Shown here: piece after piece, positions 46,329-56,078 of the stretch
How the letters are laid out: each line of letters begins with the position of its first letter
How positions within the stretch are numbered: the stretch's first letter is position 1
Assembly: GCA_025963715.1 (NCBI GenBank)
Contig: JAOQAG010000047.1
Location: forward strand, 1-60,987
DNA: 60,987 nucleotides
Direction: 5' to 3'
From: Bacteroidota bacterium
GTDB lineage: Bacteria; Bacteroidota; Bacteroidia; 2-12-FULL-35-15
Translations under genes and position numbers: made by a program
The notes under the pieces: model-generated
The model's database searches: none
What the model saw: the letters and a program-made list of their open reading frames with translations, nothing else
What the model was told of the DNA's origin: nothing

Positions 46329-47300
46329 CTTCACCAGCATTTCGCTTTCCATAAAATTCAATGTTTGTTGTCCGTCGCTGGTGGCTTCTTCCGGTTTTTC
46401 ATGCACTTCGTAAATCACACCATCTGCTCCGGCAATCATTGCTGCCAACGCAATCAGGGGCACATGCTCACGAATGCCAATCCCGTGAGACGGATCCGCG
46501 ATTACCGGCAAATGCGTTTTTTCTTTTAAGATCGGGATCGCGTTGATATCAAATGTATTGCGATAAGCGGTTTCATAACTGCGGATGCCGCGTTCACACA
46601 ACATCAGCTTTTCATTCCCGTTCGAAAAAATATATTCTGCTGATTGCAGCAATTCATCAATCGTTCCGCTCATTCCACGTTTGATCAATACCGCTTTGTC
46701 CACTTTTCCCAATTCATCCAGCAAATTAAAATTCTGCGAATTGCGTGCGCCCACCTGGAATACATCCACGTAATCATGCATTTCCGAGATCTGCGATACC
46801 TGCATCACTTCCGTGATGATCTTGATTCCGTTGGCACGACAAACCTTGTGAAACATTTTTAATCCATCGATACCCATTCCGCGGAAAGCGTAGGGCGAGC
46901 TGCGCGGTTTAAAAACGCCGCCCCGCATGATCTTAATATTGTTTTCCAGTAAATGCGCAACAATTTTTTCTACCTGCTCTTCGCTTTCAATGCTGCAGGG
47001 ACCCGCCATCAATGCAAAATTTCCATCGCCGATGGTTACGCCGTCGCCCAGGTCAATAGATGAATCAGTGGTTTTCCATTTGCGTGATACCAGCTTGTAC
47101 GCATCCGAAACGCGGTGTACATCTTCCACTCCGGGCAAGCTGCCGATCAGGCGGATGTCGAATTCATTTTTACCAATGCAAACAAGGTAATTTCCTTTTT
47201 GTGTTTTTACTTCGGTGGTTTTATAACCGATCGTTTCCAGTGCAGCATAAATTTTTGCTTTGTCGGCAACTGTAATTTTATGTTCGAGCTGAATGATCAT
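46299..47300 (-). CDS. aroF: 3-deoxy-7-phosphoheptulonate synthase (DAHP synthase, type I-beta)
   Basis: First enzyme of the shikimate pathway, 333 residues. An N-terminal ferredoxin-like domain ([20 protein letters not shown] ... IRLIGSLPGVEDVHRVS), which binds Phe/Tyr in type I-beta enzymes, precedes the TIM barrel. Seen are MAGPCSIESEEQ, RGGVFKPRSSPYAFRGMG, VGARNSQNFNLL, VLIKRGMSGTIDELL, LCERGIRSYE and VIADPSHGIG. It is the last gene of the trp operon, with ATGA overlap with trpA, so the operon supplies both ends of the pathway. The C-terminal KFKVQSLKV and the stop lie in a family 1 repeat. Confidence 0.95.
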   Translation of the reverse strand: MIIQLEHKITVADKAKIYAALETIGYKTTEVKTQKGNYLVCIGKNEFDIRLIGSLPGVEDVHRVSDAYKLVSRKWKTTDSSIDLGDGVTIGDGNFALMAGPCSIESEEQVEKIVAHLLENNIKIMRGGVFKPRSSPYAFRGMGIDGLKMFHKVCRANGIKIITEVMQVSQISEMHDYVDVFQVGARNSQNFNLLDELGKVDKAVLIKRGMSGTIDELLQSAEYIFSNGNEKLMLCERGIRSYETAYRNTFDINAIPILKEKTHLPVIADPSHGIGIREHVPLIALAAMIAGADGVIYEVHEKPEEATSDGQQTLNFMESEMLVKKFKVQSLKV

Positions 47301-48085
47301 GGTTTATTTTTTATGCGGTTCACAAATGAAGAAATACTTTTTTTAAGATCAATGGAATGATCCAGTTCTTTTATAAAAGCGCTGCCAATAATGGCGCCAC
47401 TGGCATAATTACAGGCGTTCGCAAATGATTGCTGATCCGAAATCCCAAAACCAATGAGCAATGGATTTTTTAATTGCATGGATTGGATGCGTTTAAAATA
47501 TTTTTCCTGCGCTATTTTTTCTTCATCGGAACTGGTAGCGCCGGTAGTGCTGGAAGATGAAACCACATAAATAAAACTATTAGAATGTTCATCAATGAAG
47601 CGGATGCGCGCTTCGGAGGTTTGCGGTGTGATCAGGAAAATAGTTGCCAGATCGTATTTTTCAAAAATAGTTTTGTATTCATCCACATATTCCTGCAAAG
47701 GCAGATCGGGAATGATCACGCCGGAAATACCCAGCCATGCTGCATCTTTGCAAAATTTTTCCAAACCGTATTGCAAAACAGGATTGAGATACCCCATCAG
47801 CAGGCAGCTTGCTTTTATACTTACCAGCGATTGATCCGACAATTGTTCGAAAAGTAATTTGATGCTCATGCCATTCTCCAGCGCTTTTTCGCTGCTGCGC
47901 TGGATCGTTGGCCCATCGGCAAGCGGATCCGAAAACGGCATTCCGATCTCGATCATGTCCACACCTGCATTTTCCAATTCGCGGATAATGATTTTTGTAT
48001 CATCCAACTTCGGGAAACCGGCAGTAAAATAAACCGAAAGAATATCTTCCTGCTTGTTCCTGAATAATTTATTGAGCTTGTTCAT
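47297..48085 (-). CDS. trpA: Tryptophan synthase alpha chain
   Basis: Cleaves indole-3-glycerol phosphate to indole and glyceraldehyde-3-phosphate; 262 residues. Motifs include [35 protein letters not shown] (with the catalytic Glu), [12 protein letters not shown] (catalytic Asp), [10 protein letters not shown] and LIGFGISD. Its start overlaps the end of trpB by 17 bases and its stop overlaps aroF by 4 bases, so all three are translationally coupled. It works as an alpha2beta2 complex with TrpB. Confidence 0.97.
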
Positions 48086-49256
48086 TGAATTTTATATACG
48101 TCGCTAAGTCTTTATCTCCCCTCCCCGACAGGTTTATGACGATCACGTCTTCTTTTTTTGCATTCAGTTTTTCCAGGTAAGCCAGGGCATGTGCGCTTTC
48201 CAGGGCAGGAATGATCCCTTCCAGTTTACATAATAAATACGCTGCTTTTAATGCTTCTTCATCGGTAATGCTTCCGAATTGTGCGCGGCCGCTTTCAAAT
48301 AAATGTGCGTGCTGCGGCCCGACTCCCGGATAATCCAGTCCGGCAGAAATGCTGTATGGCTCAATGATCTGACCATCTTCCGTTTGCATCAATAACGTTT
48401 TACTTCCGTGGATGATGCCGGGTTTCCCCAACACACTGGTTGCAGCGGAATGTCCGCTCTCAATACCTTTTCCGGCTGCTTCCGCCGCAATGAGTTTTAC
48501 ATCTTTATTATCTAAATAATGATAAAATGCACCGGCAGCATTGCTTCCCCCGCCCACACAAGCGATCACGTAATCAGGGTTTTCATTTCCTGTTTTTTCC
48601 TTCAGCTGTTTTTTTATTTCTTCACTGATCACGCTCTGGAAACGCGCCACCATATCGGGATACGGATGCGGCCCAACCACGGAACCAATGATGTAATAGG
48701 TATCCACAGGGTTGTTGATCCAGTCGCGGATCGCTTCATTGGTAGCATCTTTCAGCGTTCTGCTGCCGCTGGTTGCCGGGATCACTTTGGCTCCCAGTAA
48801 TTTCATGCGCGCTACATTCGGCGCCTGGCGCTCCATGTCCACTTCGCCCATGTACACAATGCATGTTAATCCCATAAGCGCGCACACAGTTGCGGTTGCT
48901 ACGCCATGCTGACCGGCACCGGTTTCGGCAATGATGCGGGTTTTACCCAAACGTTTTGCCAGTAAAATTTGTCCGAGCGTGTTGTTGATCTTGTGCGCTC
49001 CGGTATGGTTCAGATCTTCCCTTTTCAGGTAAATTTTTGTGTTGTAATGTTCCGAAAGCCGTTCCGCGTAATACAATGGCGACGGGCGTCCTACGTAATC
49101 GCGCAACAATCCCTTCAATTCATTTTGAAAAGATTTTTCGTACATAATATCCAAATATTTCTCACGCAATTCTTCCACATTCGGATACAGCATTTCAGGA
49201 ATAAAAGCCCCGCCAAAATTTCCGTAATATCCTTTTTCGTTCACCTGGTAGCTCAT
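48069..49256 (-). CDS. trpB: Tryptophan synthase beta chain
   Basis: PLP enzyme of 395 residues that joins indole and serine to tryptophan. It contains [21 protein letters not shown], the Schiff-base lysine in [37 protein letters not shown] (phosphate loop), [14 protein letters not shown], and NLSGRGDKD. Full length, class TrpB1. Its ATG overlaps the trpF stop by one base (TAATG). Confidence 0.98.
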
Positions 49257-49861
49257 TAGCGGATGTTGTTTCTGATCTGGATTATTTTTATAATGTCTTT
49301 GTAACCGGGTTTTATTTCAGCTCTGCTATTTACATCGATGGCGTGAATTTTTAAATTCATTTTTGAAACCGCCCTGAATTTTTCAATATCCATTCCACCT
49401 GCTAAAAAATAAGGAACTTCATTGTCGTATTTTTCCAGGATGCTCCAGTCAAAAGGTTTTCCGCTGCCACCGTAGGTTTCTGTTTTATAATCGAATAAAA
49501 AATAAGTGCAGCTTTTTTTATACCCGTTCAATGTATTTAAATCAAATGTTTCATCCACACCGATTGCTTTGATCACTTTTGTGAATGCGGCAATTTGCGC
49601 ACAAAATTCCGGCGTTTCGTCTCCGTGCAATTGCACAAAATTTAGTTTGTATTTATTTACTTTTTCAGAAATGGATTCTGCGGAAGCGTTGACAAAAACA
49701 CCCACTTTATTAATATTTCCGGCAATTTCGGGCATGATAAAATTTTCTCCAACGTAACGTTTCGACTGCTCATAAAAAATAAATCCCATGTAATCCGGGT
49801 TGAGTTCCGCTACCTGCTTAATGTTATCGGGATATTTTAACCCGCATACTTTTAGTTTCAT
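49256..49861 (-). CDS. trpF: Phosphoribosylanthranilate isomerase
   Basis: TIM-barrel isomerase of 201 residues. Motifs: [16 protein letters not shown] (catalytic Cys), [54 protein letters not shown] (catalytic Asp) and [11 protein letters not shown], with [18 protein letters not shown] near the end. Typical length. It begins 191 bases after the GNAT gene; that gap contains the family 4 hairpin, the only large break inside the operon. Confidence 0.95.
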
Positions 49862-49895
49862 TCTATTAATTTTTATCGAAAAAGGTTCATTAACG

Positions 49896-50030
49896 CGTCA
49901 TTGCGAGGGCTTTTCGCCCGAAGCAATCTCATTATGGCTTTATATTCTGGTGTTAGATTGCTTCGGGCGAAAAGCCCTGTGCCACCGCTAAAGCTATGGC
50001 GACACGCGGTCGCAATGACGTTCTTAAAAT
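49896..50030. repeat. Family 4 inverted repeat, copy 2, inside the trp operon
   Basis: TCATTGCGAGGGCTTTTCGC (49899-49918) and the rest of the arm pair with TTGCTTCGGGCGAAAAGCCC (49958-49977); unlike copy 1 at 1-85, the right arm is interrupted by 32 extra bases (49979-50010) before CGCAATGACG resumes. It lies between the GNAT gene and trpF and would form a strong hairpin in the trp mRNA. Confidence 0.88.
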
Positions 50031-50064
50031 AATTTATTTTTACCAGTACAAAATTTTTAAATAC

Positions 50065-50556
50065 TTATTTAATTTTTTTGATCATGATAAAATCGTTCAT
50101 AAAATAATTATTTCCAATGTCAAAATCAGCCACATCTTTGATCACAAAACCATTTTTAAAATAAAAATTAATGGCAATGTAATTCTTCCGGTTTACCGTC
50201 AGTTCAATGGTTTCAAGCGCTGGCAATGATTGCTCGATGTATTTTAAAAATTTACTTCCCACTCCTTTTGCCTGCTCCTGCTGATCGACATAAAATTTAT
50301 GTAAAAAATATTTTTTGTTATCCGTTGTACTGACGGAAATGTAACCGGCAGGTACTTTATCGACATATACCAGCGTAAATTGATTTCCCTCTTCCACCTG
50401 TTTTAACAGGCTTTGCTCGGAATACATTTTATCGAGCATGTAGTCGATCTGCTCCATCGTGATGATGGTGATGTAATGTTTCCGCCAGATCTTTTCTGCC
50501 AGTGCGGCAATGATCTTAAAATCGGATCGTTCAGCTTTTTTGTACGTAATGTTCAT
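50065..50556 (-). CDS. GNAT family N-acetyltransferase inside the trp operon
   Basis: Predicted acetyltransferase of 163 residues; substrate unknown. It reads MNITYKKAERSDFKIIAALAEKIWRKHY, VPAGYISVSTTDNKKYFLHKFYVDQQEQAKGVGSKFLKYIEQSL (acetyl-CoA loop QEQAKGVGS) and ELTVNRKNYIAINFYFKNGFVIKDVADFDIGNNYFMNDFIM. It resembles the group with FYKKxGF, which includes polyamine acetyltransferase-like proteins. Its ATG lies 26 bases inside the 3' end of trpC, so it is coupled to trpC. It is not a known tryptophan enzyme. Confidence 0.9.
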   Translation of the reverse strand: MNITYKKAERSDFKIIAALAEKIWRKHYITIITMEQIDYMLDKMYSEQSLLKQVEEGNQFTLVYVDKVPAGYISVSTTDNKKYFLHKFYVDQQEQAKGVGSKFLKYIEQSLPALETIELTVNRKNYIAINFYFKNGFVIKDVADFDIGNNYFMNDFIMIKKIK

Positions 50557-51370
50557 TTTTATGCTTGATTAATGTAGTTGAAAATGCGTTAATTTCTTTG
50601 ATAAATGCGGCGCAGGCAATTTCCGGCCGTGGATGTTTCATAAATGTTTCGCCGATCAAAAAACCGTTGAAACCGGCTGCTTTCAATTCATGAATTATTT
50701 TTGCCGAACCGATCCCGCTTTCGGAAATTTTGATGAATTCGTTAGGAATTAAATCAACCAGGTTAAATGACTGCGAAATATTGACTGTAAAATCTTTCAA
50801 ATTGCGATTGTTCACGCCCACTGCCGTGATGTGTTCATTGATCGTATTTAATTCATCCTGATCGCGCACTTCCAGTAAAACTTCCAATCCAAATGATTTT
50901 GCCAATGCTGCGAATTGCTTTATTTGCTGTGTATCCAAAACATTCGCCAATAATAAAACAACATCGGCACCGATCGCTTTCGCTTCAATGATCTGATATT
51001 CATCGATCACAAAATCTTTGCGCAGGATGGGGCAATAATTAAATTTACGTGCTTCGGTAAGGTCTTCATTTTTACCGCCAAAAAATTCGGTATCCGTTAA
51101 AATGCTCAGCGCATTTGCTCCCGCCTGCATGTAGCCAATAGACGTGCGCTCCAACGAAGCATATTTATTAATGATGCCTTTTGAAGGCGATTTACGTTTG
51201 AATTCCGCAATGATCCCGGATGTATCTTCCCGCAATAAATATTTTTTAAAGGAAACTACCGGCGAATTAAAATAAACCGAGCGTTCGAGCAGCTTTACCG
51301 GGTAAAGGCTTTTGCGCTCTGCCACTTCTTTGTGTTTGTGTGCAATTATTTTATCGAGCAGGTTTTCCAT
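50531..51370 (-). CDS. trpC: Indole-3-glycerol phosphate synthase
   Basis: TIM-barrel enzyme of 279 residues that decarboxylates and closes the indole ring. It starts MENLLDKIIAHKHKEVAERKSL and contains IIAEFKRKSPSKGIINKYA (catalytic Lys), ALSILTDTEFFGG, LRKDFVIDEYQIIEAKAIGADVVLLL, GVNNRNLKDFTV, ISESGIGSA, FLIGETFMKHP. The ~25 C-terminal residues (INAFSTTLIKHKNEHYVQKS) run beyond the usual end and overlap the GNAT start. It overlaps trpD by one base. Confidence 0.96.
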   Translation of the reverse strand: MENLLDKIIAHKHKEVAERKSLYPVKLLERSVYFNSPVVSFKKYLLREDTSGIIAEFKRKSPSKGIINKYASLERTSIGYMQAGANALSILTDTEFFGGKNEDLTEARKFNYCPILRKDFVIDEYQIIEAKAIGADVVLLLANVLDTQQIKQFAALAKSFGLEVLLEVRDQDELNTINEHITAVGVNNRNLKDFTVNISQSFNLVDLIPNEFIKISESGIGSAKIIHELKAAGFNGFLIGETFMKHPRPEIACAAFIKEINAFSTTLIKHKNEHYVQKS

Positions 51371-52362
51371 TATTGATGTTGTAGAAGTGTTTTATAAACG
51401 TTCAATGCTTTTTTACTTTTGAGTGATTCGTTTGCCTGTGCGATGCAGTCAGTCAATGTTTGATCAGCGTTTACACAATTGATCGCAACAGCTGCGTTGA
51501 TAATCACGGCATTATTTTGTGCTGCTGTTCCGCTTCCATTCAACACATTTAAGAAGATCTTTGCGGCTTCATCTACTGTTGCACCGCCAAACAAATCGGC
51601 TTGCTGCAAGCGTGCAAAACCAACATCAGCCGGACTAACCAACTGTTTCTTATTTTTTGAGACCAGTTTAAAATCTGCGGTAAGCGATACTTCATCGTAA
51701 CCATCCAGCGAATGAACGATGCTATAATCTGTGGAAACATCCTGTAATAAATAGTTGTAGAGGCGCAGCATTTCCAAACTATACACACCCAGCAATTGAT
51801 ATTTCGGAAAACATGGATTCACAACCGGCCCTAATAAATTAAAGAACGTCCGTACAGCAAGCTCTTTCCGGATCGGTGCTACTTTTTTCATAGCAGGATG
51901 AAATAAAGGCGCATGCAAAAAACAAATGCCTGCTTTATCCAGTTGTTTTTGCAAAATTGCTTTTTCATTTGTGAATTTATACCCGATCGCATCCAGTACA
52001 TTGGACGAACCGCTTACCGCTGAAACGCCGTAGTTGCCATGTTTCGTTACGTTTATTCCCGCACCGGCCACTACAAAACAAGCAAGCGTGGAAATATTGA
52101 ACGTATCTTTTCCGTCGCCACCGGTTCCTACAATATCAATGGAATTGTCACTTTCAAATTCGGTTTTCAAACACATGTCCAGCATCGCATCGCGGAAGCC
52201 CGATAATTCTTCCACCGTAATGGCGCGCATTCCGTAAACCGACATGAACGCCGCTACCTGCACAGGATTGTACTTTTCCGAAGCAATGTTCAGCAATACT
52301 TCCTTTGCCTGTTCGCGCGAAAGCGACCGGTATTCAAATAAATTATTCAGCAGCACTTTCAT
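51370..52362 (-). CDS. trpD: Anthranilate phosphoribosyltransferase
   Basis: Transfers phosphoribosyl from PRPP to anthranilate; 330 residues. The PRPP motif is DIVGTGGDGKDTFNIST, followed by KHGNYGVSAVSGSSNVLDAIG, FLHAPLFHPAMKKVAPIRKELAVRTFFNLLGPVVNP and DGYDEVSLT. Full length. Its start overlaps the trpG stop by one base, and its own stop overlaps trpC, giving an unbroken coupled block. Confidence 0.97.
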   Translation of the reverse strand: MKVLLNNLFEYRSLSREQAKEVLLNIASEKYNPVQVAAFMSVYGMRAITVEELSGFRDAMLDMCLKTEFESDNSIDIVGTGGDGKDTFNISTLACFVVAGAGINVTKHGNYGVSAVSGSSNVLDAIGYKFTNEKAILQKQLDKAGICFLHAPLFHPAMKKVAPIRKELAVRTFFNLLGPVVNPCFPKYQLLGVYSLEMLRLYNYLLQDVSTDYSIVHSLDGYDEVSLTADFKLVSKNKKQLVSPADVGFARLQQADLFGGATVDEAAKIFLNVLNGSGTAAQNNAVIINAAVAINCVNADQTLTDCIAQANESLKSKKALNVYKTLLQHQ

Positions 52363-52928
52363 CAGCTATTTACCCAGTTTTTAATGATGGCTAATCCATG
52401 CTCCGTTAAAATACTTTCCGGGTGAAATTGTATCGCGTGCACATTGTATATTTTGTGTTTTAATGCCATGATGTGCCCGGCTGCATCCACAGCAGTGATC
52501 TCCAGACCAGCCGGAAAATTAACCGGATTTACCGCCCAGGAATGGTATCTTCCCACTTTAAAATGTTTTGGAATATTACTGAACAATACATCTTCTTTGA
52601 TCACGTCGATCGGTGTCGATAATCCGTGAAAAACGGTTTTCAGGTTTACTAACGAACCGCCAAACGCTTCTGCAATGGCCTGTTGCCCCAAACAAACACC
52701 CAGTATACTTTTCGTTGGTGCATACGTTTTTATTACTTCCAGTAAGATCCCCGCTTCGGAGGGAATTCCCGGACCGGGCGAAAGCAGGATCTTATCAAAA
52801 CGATCGATCTCCGCCAGCGAAATTTTATCGTTGCGATGCACTTCCACTTCTGCATCGCTTACCTTTTCGAGGTAATGCACAAGGTTGTAGGTGAAACTAT
52901 CGTAATTATCGAGTACTAAAATTTTCAT
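52362..52928 (-). CDS. trpG: Anthranilate synthase component II (glutamine amidotransferase)
   Basis: Class I glutaminase, 188 residues, that supplies ammonia to TrpE. The N terminus is MKILVLDNYDSFTYNLVHYLE, the oxyanion loop is LSPGPGIPSEAG, the nucleophile Cys is in GVCLGQQAIAEAFGG, and the His-Glu pair is in AIQFHPESILTEHG. It could also serve PabB, but its place in the operon points to anthranilate. It is separated from trpE by a 115-base family 5 hairpin. Confidence 0.96.
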   Translation of the reverse strand: MKILVLDNYDSFTYNLVHYLEKVSDAEVEVHRNDKISLAEIDRFDKILLSPGPGIPSEAGILLEVIKTYAPTKSILGVCLGQQAIAEAFGGSLVNLKTVFHGLSTPIDVIKEDVLFSNIPKHFKVGRYHSWAVNPVNFPAGLEITAVDAAGHIMALKHKIYNVHAIQFHPESILTEHGLAIIKNWVNS

Positions 52929-53080: not shown

Positions 53081-54485
53081 CTATATCATTTCCGCCATCA
53101 CCAGCGCTTTTTTTAACGCGGCCAGCTTATTATTCACTTCATTTAATTCGCTTTCCTCGTTGGATGATTCAACGATCCCGGCCCCCTGCCTGGTAAAATA
53201 AACAATTGTTTTTACTCAGGAACGAACGGATCATAATCGCATGGTTAAAATCGCCATTAAATCCCAAAAATCCAATACATCCGCCATAAAAACCGCGGTT
53301 TCCTTTTTCATAGGTATCGATCAGCTGCATGGCTTTGTATTTGGGTGCGCCGCTCAGCGTTCCGGCCGGAAATGTGTCGGCCACCACTTTTAACATGCTT
53401 CCTTTGTCTTTCAATTTTCCTTTTACATTGGATACCAGGTGGATCACATGCGAATAAAACTGGATCTCCCGGAAGGTCTCTATTTTTAGATCCGAGCAGC
53501 TTTTGCTGAGATCATTACGGGCCAGGTCCACCAACATCACATGTTCCGCGTTTTCTTTCACATCCGTTTTTAATTTTTCTGCCAGTAATACATCTGCTTC
53601 ATCATCGCCTGTACGGCGGAATGTGCCTGCAATGGGGTGAATGGCCGCTTCATTATTTTTTACCACCAGTTGCGCTTCGGGCGAAGAGCCAAATAATTTG
53701 AAATTCCCATAATCAAAATAAAATAAATACGGGGAAGGATTGATGGAGCGCAAAGCACGGTACACATTAAAATCGTCGCCGGTAAATGTTTGCGAAAATT
53801 CGCGGGAAAGCACCATCTGGAAAACATCTCCGCGCCTGCAATGCACCTTTGCCTGCGCAATCACGGAAAGAAATTCCGGGTCTGTAAAATTGGATTGCTC
53901 TGTATTTTTCAAACTGAATTTATAGGCCGGAAAATTTTTATTCCCGATCAGCGCTTCCACCTGTCCCAACAAATCATCAGTATTTCCTTCCGGAGAATGC
54001 TGAAAAATATACAGTTCGTTTTTAAAATGATCGATCACAATCACCAACTGATAAAGATGATAGACCAGATCCGGAATTTTTTTGCTTTCTTTTTTTGAAG
54101 CGTTGATCTCTATGTCTTCAAAATACCGTACCGCATCGTAGCTGATATAGCCAAACAAACCGTTGCTGATAAATTTCAGATCGCTTTTACCGGTTTCAAA
54201 TCGTTGGGTAAATGCTTTTAATTCGTCCGTAAGGCTGCATCCCGATATTTCTTTTAATGTAGACGTTCCATCCGGAAAGCTGCATTCTATTTTTTCATTT
54301 TCCAGCTTAATCCCGGCAATTGGCTTGCAGCAAATAAAGGAATAGCTGTTTTCATTGCCATGATAATCGGAGCTTTCGAGTAAAACGGAATTGGGAAATT
54401 TATCACGGAGCTTTAAATACAAACTCACCGGCGTGATCGTATCTGCTAAGAGTTTTTTGTGAGTTGTATTTAATTTGTAATTCAT
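53081..54485 (-). CDS. trpE: Anthranilate synthase component I, with apparent frameshift near the 3' end
   Basis: Chorismate-using subunit of anthranilate synthase. From ATG 54485 (MNYKLNTTHKKLLADTITPVSLYLKL) the frame carries SSDYHGNENSYSFICCKPIAGI, FQMVLSREFSQTF, PSPYLFYFDYGNFKLFGSSPEAQL, HPIAGTFRRTG, NAEHVMLVDLARNDLSKSC and GTLSGAPKYKAMQLID. It then stops at 53169 after FYQAGGRDR. A five-C run at 53182-53186 (GGGGG in the message) appears to be one base too long. With four, the frame continues as QAGAGIVESSNEESELNEVN and ends at a TAG at 53081, which is the normal TrpE end. The cause may be a sequencing error, a real mutation or programmed slippage. Confidence 0.93.
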
Positions 54486-54691
54486 TTTCTGTGTGTGTTT
54501 AACCGCAGAGAGTGCAAAGAAGGCGCAAAGCTCGCAGAGGATATTATTTTGTATTGCTTGCTGTGTGTATTGGTACACAGATTTTAAGGCAATTTTTATG
54601 ATAAAAAATGATCTTTTTTATTTATGGTTATTTATGATTTATACTGTCCTGGCTCTTGATTCTTAATTCTTGTTTCTCACTTTACTGCAAT
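54486..54691 (-). promoter_or_regulatory. trp mRNA leader between attenuator and trpE
   Basis: 206 bases between the attenuator terminator and the trpE start. It holds a family 6 repeat (54500-54541, AACCGCAGAGAGTGCAAAGA and on), a family 2-like scrap (TGTGTGTATTGGTACACAGA, 54562-54581), and TCTTGATTCTTAATTCTTG (54653-54671). No gene or second terminator is seen. Confidence 0.6.
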
Positions 54692-54729
54692 AAAAAACGC
54701 CCGTTCTGTATACAGAACGGGCGTTTTTT
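54692..54729 (-). terminator. Intrinsic terminator of the trp attenuator
   Basis: A perfect 38-base palindrome. On the minus strand AAAAAACGCCCGTTCTG pairs with CAGAACGGGCGTTTTTT, with a T-run at the 3' end. It lies 22 bases after the stop of the Trp-rich leader peptide and 206 bases before trpE, as expected for an attenuator. Confidence 0.93.
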
Positions 54730-54787
54730 AATATCGGGTATTATCAAATAATTAGCTTGCCGTTCTCTCAGAGTACGACCACCACCA
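54714..54787 (-). promoter_or_regulatory. Peptide-leader transcription attenuator of the trp operon
   Basis: Three alternative stems can be drawn on the minus strand. Segment 1 (CGTACTCT, 54778-54771, directly after the Trp codons) pairs with segment 2 (AGAGAACG, one mismatch). The AGAACGG of segment 2 (54766-54760) pairs exactly with CCGTTCT (54720-54714) of the terminator's 5' arm, which would break the terminator. Segments 3 and 4 form the terminator. A ribosome stalled on the three Trp codons (54787-54779) would cover segment 1 and favour 2:3 pairing, so low tryptophan would let transcription proceed. Confidence 0.85.
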
Positions 54788-54814
54788 GATGTTATTTAAT
54801 AATTGATTTTTCAT
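54752..54814 (-). CDS. trpL: trp operon leader peptide with three tandem Trp codons
   Basis: A 20-residue open frame from an ATG, MKNQLLNNIWWWSYSERTAS, with TGG TGG TGG at codons 10-12. It is about 20 bases behind a good promoter (54838-54870), and its stop lies 22 bases before a strong terminator. Tandem Trp codons plus a terminator ahead of trpE are the hallmarks of a regulatory leader peptide, whose product itself does nothing beyond making the ribosome pause. The symbol is by analogy with enterobacterial trpL; the sequence is not related. Confidence 0.9.
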   Translation of the reverse strand: MKNQLLNNIWWWSYSERTAS

Positions 54815-54837
54815 TTTCGTGTAATAAAATTTACGCA

Positions 54838-54870
54838 CAAAGATAAAGGCATAAAAATTCAAAAAGCAAA
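54838..54870 (-). promoter_or_regulatory. trp operon promoter (-33 TTTG, -7 TATCTTTG)
   Basis: On the minus strand TTTG (54870-54867) and TATCTTTG (54845-54838) are 21 bases apart, the same spacing as at 1302-1334. The transcript would start near 54832, about 18 bases before the leader peptide ATG. Confidence 0.8.
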
Positions 54871-54905
54871 TTATTTTTGTTTTAATTTTAAAACTGCTGA
54901 TTTCA

Positions 54906-56078
54906 CTAACGTTTCGAAGCCAAAAACAATTTTTCCAATTGCGCGGTGGTACTTTTCCAGTTAAAATTATCCACAGCAAAACGGTAGCCATTCAATGCGA
55001 TCGTGTTTGCTTTCTGCTCGTTCTGCAGCAATTCAATTACCTGCATGGCGTATTGTTGCGGGTTATCCGCCACCATGATCTGTTCGTTGTGTTTCGCACC
55101 CAGCGCATTGTTTGCCAATGCAGAAGTGATACACGGAATTTTCATCGCCATTGCTTCCAGTAATTTATTCTGCAAGCCAATACTGATCTGCATCGGTGCG
55201 ATGAGGATCTTTGATTTTGCATAATTCTCACGCACATCATCTACCCAGCCGCTCACGATCACACGCTCCGATTCCAGTTCTTTTACCTTATTGTTGGGCG
55301 ATGCACCGGAGATCAGCAAACGTACCTGCGGCATTTTACTCCAAACGTAGGGCATTATTTTTTCCACTAAATATTCCACGCTTTCTACATTCGGCGGATA
55401 ATTCATATTCCCGTTGAACAACAGATCAAATTCTTTTTTGCGTTCCATCGGTTTAAAATAATCCGCATCCACACCGTTCGGGATCACTGCTATCTGCTGC
55501 TTATCAGGATGCGGGATCAGATCACGGTCCTGTTTGCTGATGATGGTTTTATTATTAAAAAGTGAAAATATTTTGTTCTCGTATTTCAACAAGCGTTTGT
55601 ATTCCAGCGCTAAAAACGGTTTCATGTAAAACGGATCAGTTGCTTTCCTCCGCTCGATCCCTTTCGAGAATACATCCATGTAATCCAGTGTTTTTGGACA
55701 ACCGGAATATTTTTTTACATATTCGGATGTACGGATCAGCTGGCAATAAATATGATCGGGTTTGTGCTTTTGGATCAGTTCATCAACTTTTTTCTGTGCG
55801 CGCTTAAAATGGAAATAGCCTACCTGTAAAGGCAAGCCGTTGAAAAATGCTTTTATTAAATTTAAAAATACACGCTGCCTGGTCAGTGAAACCGTTGAAA
55901 AAGCAACACAGTATTTTTTTAATTCTTCTTTCGCTTTTTCATCAATGTCGCCTTCATTGATAGCAAACAAAATCACCTGGTTATTTTTCGAAAGCTCTTT
56001 GATCTGGTTGAACGCACGCAGCTTATCCCCTTTTTCAAGCGGATACGGCACACGTGATAATAGTACTAAAATTTTCAT
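54906..56078 (-). CDS. Glycosyltransferase (GT4-like), copy A
   Basis: GT-B fold glycosyltransferase of 390 residues, cytoplasmic or membrane-associated, probably in surface polysaccharide or glycolipid synthesis. It starts MKILVLLSRVPYPLEKGDKLRAFNQIKEL and has CPKTLDYMDVFSKG, AVIPNGVDADYF, LLFNGNMNYPPNVESVEYLVEKIMP, LLISGASP, VSGWVDD and the donor-binding LLEAMAMKIPCITSALANNAL. The layout resembles the sugar-transferase group TIGR03087. It follows the second glycosyltransferase after 26 bases. The promoter of the trp operon begins 36 bases beyond its stop without an evident terminator. Confidence 0.88.
   Translation of the reverse strand: MKILVLLSRVPYPLEKGDKLRAFNQIKELSKNNQVILFAINEGDIDEKAKEELKKYCVAFSTVSLTRQRVFLNLIKAFFNGLPLQVGYFHFKRAQKKVDELIQKHKPDHIYCQLIRTSEYVKKYSGCPKTLDYMDVFSKGIERRKATDPFYMKPFLALEYKRLLKYENKIFSLFNNKTIISKQDRDLIPHPDKQQIAVIPNGVDADYFKPMERKKEFDLLFNGNMNYPPNVESVEYLVEKIMPYVWSKMPQVRLLISGASPNNKVKELESERVIVSGWVDDVRENYAKSKILIAPMQISIGLQNKLLEAMAMKIPCITSALANNALGAKHNEQIMVADNPQQYAMQVIELLQNEQKANTIALNGYRFAVDNFNWKSTTAQLEKLFLASKR

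Follow-up and report, generated by a model that had tools for sequence, protein, structure and literature searches.

Ribosome-mediated attenuators of the trp class carry tandem codons of the regulated amino acid in a short ORF ahead of its biosynthetic operon; their 2:3 and 3:4 pairings are mutually exclusive, a stem 1:2 overlaps the stall codons, and termination falls when the charging of tRNA-Trp falls. Leaders of this kind are already known, including in the Bacteroidetes. The Rfam family RF01692 (Bacteroid-trp) is named the "Bacteroidete tryptophan peptide leader RNA", and a table in Weinberg et al. 2010 lists it among motifs of the Bacteroidetes (PMC2864571). For F. psychrophilum, which belongs to the same phylum as the source of the DNA studied here and to another family, one passage in the literature states that leader peptide attenuation is strongly indicated ahead of amino-acid operons (PMC9723704), and a passage in a second report places a Bacteroid-Trp RNA, with a structure similar to that of the E. 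coli leader, upstream of the trp operon (PMC6414381). In Bacteroides thetaiotaomicron, short ORFs reminiscent of leader peptides are mentioned within long 5' UTRs (PMC7366714). A statement dating from 2010 has leader-peptide systems known only from Proteobacteria and Actinobacteria prior to the addition of Firmicutes (PMC2965389). Among open PubMed Central papers, none was found on the trp leader of the present lineage. A comparative paper of 2010 by Lopatovskaya and others, cited in PMC4833913, may cover the Bacteroidetes.

Anatomy and predicted switching of the leader

The element lies on the minus strand of the window, by which we mean the whole 60,987-nt stretch of Bacteroidota DNA that was analysed, and directly precedes a trp operon (Table 1).

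Table 1. Coordinates of the leader elements and of the trp operon in the window
Feature	Position	Strand	Basis or remark
Promoter-like boxes, Bacteroidota type	TTTG 54870-54867; 21-nt spacer; TATCTTTG 54845-54838	-	read from sequence
Transcription start	~54832	-	inferred
Leader peptide ORF, 20 codons, MKNQLLNNIWWWSYSERTAS*	54814-54752	-	ATG at 54814; TAA 54754-54752
Three tandem Trp codons (TGG, TGGTGGTGG), proposed stall site	54787-54779	-	
Protector hairpin 1:2 core, GUCGU.CUC-loop-GAG.ACGGC	54759..54779	-	-6.5 kcal/mol folded alone
Stem 1:2 outer A-T-rich part, 54803-54792 with 54751-54740	54740..54803	-	MFE fold
Segment 2, AGAACGG, antiterminator strand within leader ORF	54766-54760	-	
Segment 3, CCGTTCT, 7-nt complement of segment 2, in 5' arm of terminator	54720-54714	-	
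Intrinsic terminator, perfect 19+19 palindrome (38 nt), six T at end	54729-54692	-	-26.2 kcal/mol
trpE, first gene of the operon, ATG at 54485	53169..54485	-	NCBIfam TIGR00564 trpE_most, 396 bits, below the 517.7 cut-off
trpG, trpD, trpC, acetyltransferase-like ORF, trpF, trpB, trpA, in this order after trpE	47297..52928	-	

An earlier note on this DNA had described promoter-like boxes, a 20-residue leader with three consecutive Trp residues and a terminator palindrome, all of which were borne out base by base on the minus strand; both strands of its exact 7-nt antiterminator (AGAACGG/CCGTTCT) were likewise located as it had described them. The leader RNA spanning 54832-54690 has a minimum free energy (MFE) of -46.3 kcal/mol, against a mean of -22.0 (sd 3.3) for 200 dinucleotide shuffles, none of which was as good (z -7.3). 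When both strands of the 61-kb window are considered, its ORF is the sole ATG-started short ORF (5-45 codons) with WWW. Four further matches were returned over the window by a filter for a Trp pair plus a hairpin; their hairpins have energies of -10.5 to -13.4 versus -26.2 kcal/mol at the leader. The genome-wide count of TGGTGGTGG is uninformative, with 137 places versus 113 for the reversed pattern. A consensus scanner applied to 54480-54920 found neither a terminator nor a minus-strand promoter, the former because the T-run of the leader terminator lies wholly within the stem, and the latter because the housekeeping promoters of Bacteroidota have another consensus, namely TTTG/TAnnTTTG. At gathering thresholds, Rfam gave no match to a T-box or any other RNA family over the whole window, and none of eight leader peptides matched a Pfam or NCBIfam family, a search that has little power with peptides of 20-25 aa.

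Within the operon, trpG, trpD, trpC, trpB and trpA all score above the cut-off of an NCBIfam model, and trpF has NCBIfam matches below cut-off only. The acetyltransferase-like ORF (50065-50556), situated between trpC and trpF, has family matches that all fall below cut-off. The 205-nt spacer between the terminator and trpE (54486-54690) holds dispersed repeats, with matches at 43 other places in the genome, most of them to the trpE-proximal ~55 nt; the distance from the end of the terminator to trpE is only 15-26 nt in five congeners. The genome containing the window (98.48% complete) has no match to the HisG, IlvD and PDT (PheA) families at E<=0.001, families that were matched in 13, 14 and 14 of 14 control genomes, respectively; homoserine dehydrogenase is present. 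Judged by one gene per pathway, this organism keeps its trp operon, yet may not make His, Ile/Val and Phe by the usual routes.

Conservation among congeners, recurrence across the class and nascent folding support the interpretation put forward in the earlier note, and on this sequence-based evidence we consider the element to be, with a probability of about 0.93, a ribosome-mediated transcription attenuator of the trp operon. In the proposed mechanism, the leader would be transcribed from the putative start, with immediate translation of its short ORF. With ample charged tRNA-Trp, the presumed signal, the ribosome would reach the stop codon and cover segment 2, the 3' end of which lies 5 nt upstream of that codon; segment 3 would then pair with segment 4, and transcription would be expected to end near 54692. 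When charged tRNA-Trp is scarce, the ribosome would stall on the Trp codons and open stem 1:2, so that segment 2 could pair with segment 3 ahead of the synthesis of segment 4, upon which the terminator could not form and trpE would be transcribed. If the ribosome is absent, stem 1:2 would hide segment 2, with termination as the default outcome.

The folding alternatives required by this model were obtained when the nascent RNA was folded as it stands before segment 4 exists, with assumed ribosomes masking 11 or 13 nt that start with the first base of the codon in the A site. With no ribosome on the window leader, the 1:2 element forms (-18.0) and arm 3 is free; with the ribosome at W1, W2 or W3, a 2:3 hairpin of -12.1 kcal/mol appears (-11.7 in one of the six settings); and a ribosome at the stop codon leaves arm 3 unpaired. 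Folding with and without a blocked 5' part had been suggested in the earlier note, and the protecting 1:2 stem that it proposed forms both in the MFE structure and in nascent folding. At equilibrium, the complete leader favours the terminator even with a stalled ribosome, and therefore the outcome must depend on the order of synthesis. On the whole, the window leader combines a Trp-codon ORF in front of a trp operon with mutually exclusive 2:3 and 3:4 pairings, evident in both sequence and folding, and with a protector stem 1:2 that overlaps the stall codons. Across the 105 leaders of the class that pass the filter described below, arm 3 has a mean paired probability of 0.47 in the ribosome-free state, 0.70 with a stalled ribosome and 0.31 with one at the stop codon, and the value exceeds 0.5 in 99, 18 and 46 of the 105 in the stalled, stop-codon and ribosome-free states, respectively. 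The ribosome-free state is thus mixed in the class, and the protector stem is clear only in the genus of the window.

Conservation in the genus and fit of the segments between families

A search of the family, 36 genomes that all carry the label of one genus, recovered TrpE at E<=1e-60 in 8; a search at the level of the order returned the same 36 genomes. Judged by TrpE, the only protein sought, tryptophan synthesis may therefore have been lost in most of the genus. Among the good-quality genomes of the genus, 6 of 26 have it at this threshold. The same leader is present in five of the seven relatives of the window locus (L002, L003, L005, L006 and L007) and missing in L004; L008 lies at a contig edge and was left out beforehand, its contig beginning inside trpE. 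In L004, trpE begins 62 nt after the upstream ORF, and neither a Trp-run leader nor a terminator-like hairpin was found in the stretch read, which probably reflects a natural loss. WWW is thus kept in five of the six congeners with readable DNA upstream of trpE, and the peptides of these five conform to the pattern MKxQLLNNxWWWSYSxRTA.

Alignment of the six leaders (that of the window and those of the five congeners) shows that the three Trp codons are invariant in all six and that the 2:3 helix is paired in 97.6% of cells. Two pairs of this helix are changed one-sidedly to G-U, in three sequences each, and are kept as pairs; the number of such changes equals the shuffled expectation, and the helix accordingly displays conservation rather than covariation. 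The eight pairs of the hairpin 1:2 core do not vary in the six sequences, and this core is likewise conserved without covariation. The outer part of stem 1:2 is paired in 94.4% of cells, and only 66.7% of cells are paired in the poorly kept 4-pair helix that lies between this outer part and the core. The terminator shows both-sided changes in 4 of 18 pairs and is paired in 82.5% of cells, with an uneven alignment in the loop and tail. The earlier note had held that a lack of conservation of WWW or of the 2:3 pairing in relatives would speak against an attenuator, and both turned out to be conserved. It had also called for a search of relatives for WWW leaders and for covariation of the segments: the former were found, and for the latter the 2:3 helix, with its one-sided changes only, is uninformative within the genus.

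The conservation of the peptide bears on two other readings. The leader could act in trans as a small RNA or peptide in addition to its role in cis, as has been reported in a description of peTrpL of Sinorhizobium meliloti (PMC7298713). Attenuation would presumably release a short transcript available for such action, but cis pairing explains the conservation of the peptide, and we consider the additional trans role quite improbable. In the second reading, the nascent peptide itself would sense free tryptophan and arrest the ribosome in the manner of TnaC, with slow decoding of the Trp codons playing no part. The residues around the Trp run (SYSxRTA) are indeed conserved in the genus, which follows from their codons forming the 1:2 and 2:3 helices; between families, the peptides have little in common other than the Trp run and frequent Asn, and this reading appears to us slightly less credible still than a function in trans.

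The attenuator reading, by comparison, implies that the segment downstream of the Trp codons should match the terminator of its own leader, and such a match is seen across families. Duplex scores against shuffled segments provided a weak test, reaching p<=0.05 in only 51 of 105 leaders, and a swap test was devised after this result. In the latter, the post-Trp segment paired with its own terminator arm averages -13.3 kcal/mol, and permuted partners have a mean of -9.27 (sd 0.26), with -10.2 kcal/mol as the best of 2000 permutations. Own terminators were better than those of other families on average in all 27 of 27 families, which is the safer figure as related leaders are not independent. In the best duplexes, the placing of which is rough, the ORF contains the start of segment 2 in 90 of the 105 leaders and the whole of it in 44. 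The suggestion in the earlier note that the antiterminator strand is also coding, with the peptide and the RNA constrained together, hence describes a common arrangement in this set.

Distribution across the class and the phylum

For the class, TrpE was sought in 395 genomes and detected at E<=1e-60 in 124 of them, at 125 places; these places (30 loci and 95 regions) together with three congeners supplied 128 upstream regions. The filter demanded an ORF of 5-45 codons with WW or WxW, located within 450 nt of trpE and accompanied nearby by a terminator-like hairpin of -10 kcal/mol or better. It was passed by 105 of the 128 regions, as against 2 of 128 reverse complements and 0, 0 and 0 of 128 in three rounds of shuffling. 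This recurrence before trpE in the greater part of the class sample, against near-zero controls, together with the promoter-like boxes and conserved Trp-run ORF that separate the hairpin of the window from the same-strand glycosyltransferase gene upstream of it, leaves hardly any room for the view that the hairpin is a plain terminator of that gene, with the short ORF adjoining by chance.

The regions that fail the filter are of several kinds. In three (L074, L079 and L083), WWW and a hairpin missed by the filter were recognized by eye. In eight others (L086, L100, L101, L102, L106, L108, L114 and L116), inspection by eye places trpE directly after the end of trpB, and a match to RF01692 lies 1.26-1.46 kb upstream of trpE, a distance that fits the front of trpB; these matches before trpB are above cut-off in G382, G363, G139, G343, G106, G170 and G200, and below it in G400. 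Loss of the leader in these eight regions was considered and rejected, as trpE there simply follows trpB. Three regions at contig edges offer too little DNA, namely L017 (151 nt, without a leader), L021 (60 nt) and L129 (18 nt). A terminator, recognized partly by eye, is accompanied by only single or scattered Trp codons in L029, L038, L055, L110 and L119, and in L004, L056, L065 and L097 a Trp-run leader was not found upstream of trpE. With 105 regions counted by the filter, 3 by eye and 8 by the RF01692 match before trpB, 116 of 125 readable regions are accounted for. Three of the regions with single or scattered Trp codons (L029, L038 and L055, of family f23) share a similar short ORF before trpE that holds a single Trp codon and reads MKLWQxYxxPxPLLxxGMG; after it come a hairpin, CCCGGTTCC...GAATCGGGT, and a T-run, in part identified by eye.

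Residues and promoter boxes were counted in 125 regions, with L017, L021 and L129 left out. Three identical residues in a row within ATG-started ORFs are found for W in 70 of the 125 regions, for N in 12, and for any other residue in at most 4. Under a looser pair criterion (XX or XxX), the counts are 103 for W, 70 for N, 41 for L and 33 for S, the latter three being frequent because the same ORFs hold other residues too. Of 103 leader ATGs, 83 have the box TAnnTTTG no more than 70 nt upstream; among control stretches it occurs in 12 of 125.

A set of 80 named TrpE relatives, including Flavobacterium, Aquimarina, Pedobacter, Mucilaginibacter, Pontibacter, Roseivirga and others, overlaps with the class sample, in that L130, L131 and L132 repeat L003, L004 and L002, with possibly more repeats. 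Judging by these named relatives, the class is probably Bacteroidia. The filter was passed by 74 of the 80, and by 2 of 80 reverse-complement controls. The six failures comprise two loci at a contig edge (~100-170 nt), one with a single-Trp ORF and a terminator, and three with none. In a sample of the phylum, TrpE was detected in 210 of 247 genomes, and 40 regions outside the class, spread over families, were chosen among the places listed. The filter was passed by 26 of these 40 and by 0 of 40 reverse complements. None of the chosen regions pass in f79, f82, f84 (four regions), f85, f95, f97 and f104, and in f96 one of two does. In family f90 (L254-L261), also outside the class, a proline follows the Trp run (WWWP) in all eight of eight regions. 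Taken together, the surveys suggest that Trp-run attenuators are very common in the phylum.

Wider implications and comparison with described trp leaders

The above distribution raises the possibility that the trp peptide attenuator is ancestral and nearly universal across the Bacteroidota and several sister classes, with its helices rewritten by lineage and most of its members lying outside the existing RNA family model; this remains a tentative proposal, to which we assign somewhat less than an even chance. If true, leader RNAs would be sites of close coupling between transcription and translation in the whole of a phylum that is not known to rely on Shine-Dalgarno initiation. The Bacteroidota are not named in one paper's list of the phyla that it assigns to runaway transcription (PMC13323073). 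Since the same three-segment logic is realized with differing helices that fit their own terminators, the Bacteroidota constitute a large natural set for tests of coupling. The mechanism is a textbook one, and its Bacteroidetes version has already been catalogued; what is added here is the scale and the freedom of sequence, and the wider interest lies in the breadth of the leader and in the small share of it caught by the current family model.

The closest described system, RF01692, is like the window leader a Trp peptide leader RNA of the Bacteroidetes. It matched one of 20 loci submitted, L022, at 88.5 bits, a locus with a WWW-bearing leader and a terminator ahead of trpE; in contrast, the window leader scores 24.7 bits, below the cut-off of 49, and in a search of the 395 class genomes the genome of the window has no listed match. 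Only 17 of these 395 genomes have a match above cut-off and 26 at E<=1e-3, counts from which stricter filters lose some weak matches; set against the 105 of 128 regions in which a leader was read directly, the 17 of 395 suggest that the model misses many members. The E. coli trp leader shares with the window leader the succession of Trp codons and then stems 1:2, 2:3 and 3:4, and differs from it in having two Trp codons as opposed to three, and in placing segment 2 after the stop codon rather than inside the ORF; the score of the window leader against the corresponding model, RF00513 (Trp_leader), is 15.8 bits, below the cut-off of 41. The window leader works, on paper, like both RF01692 and RF00513, and lies outside both models as they are drawn.
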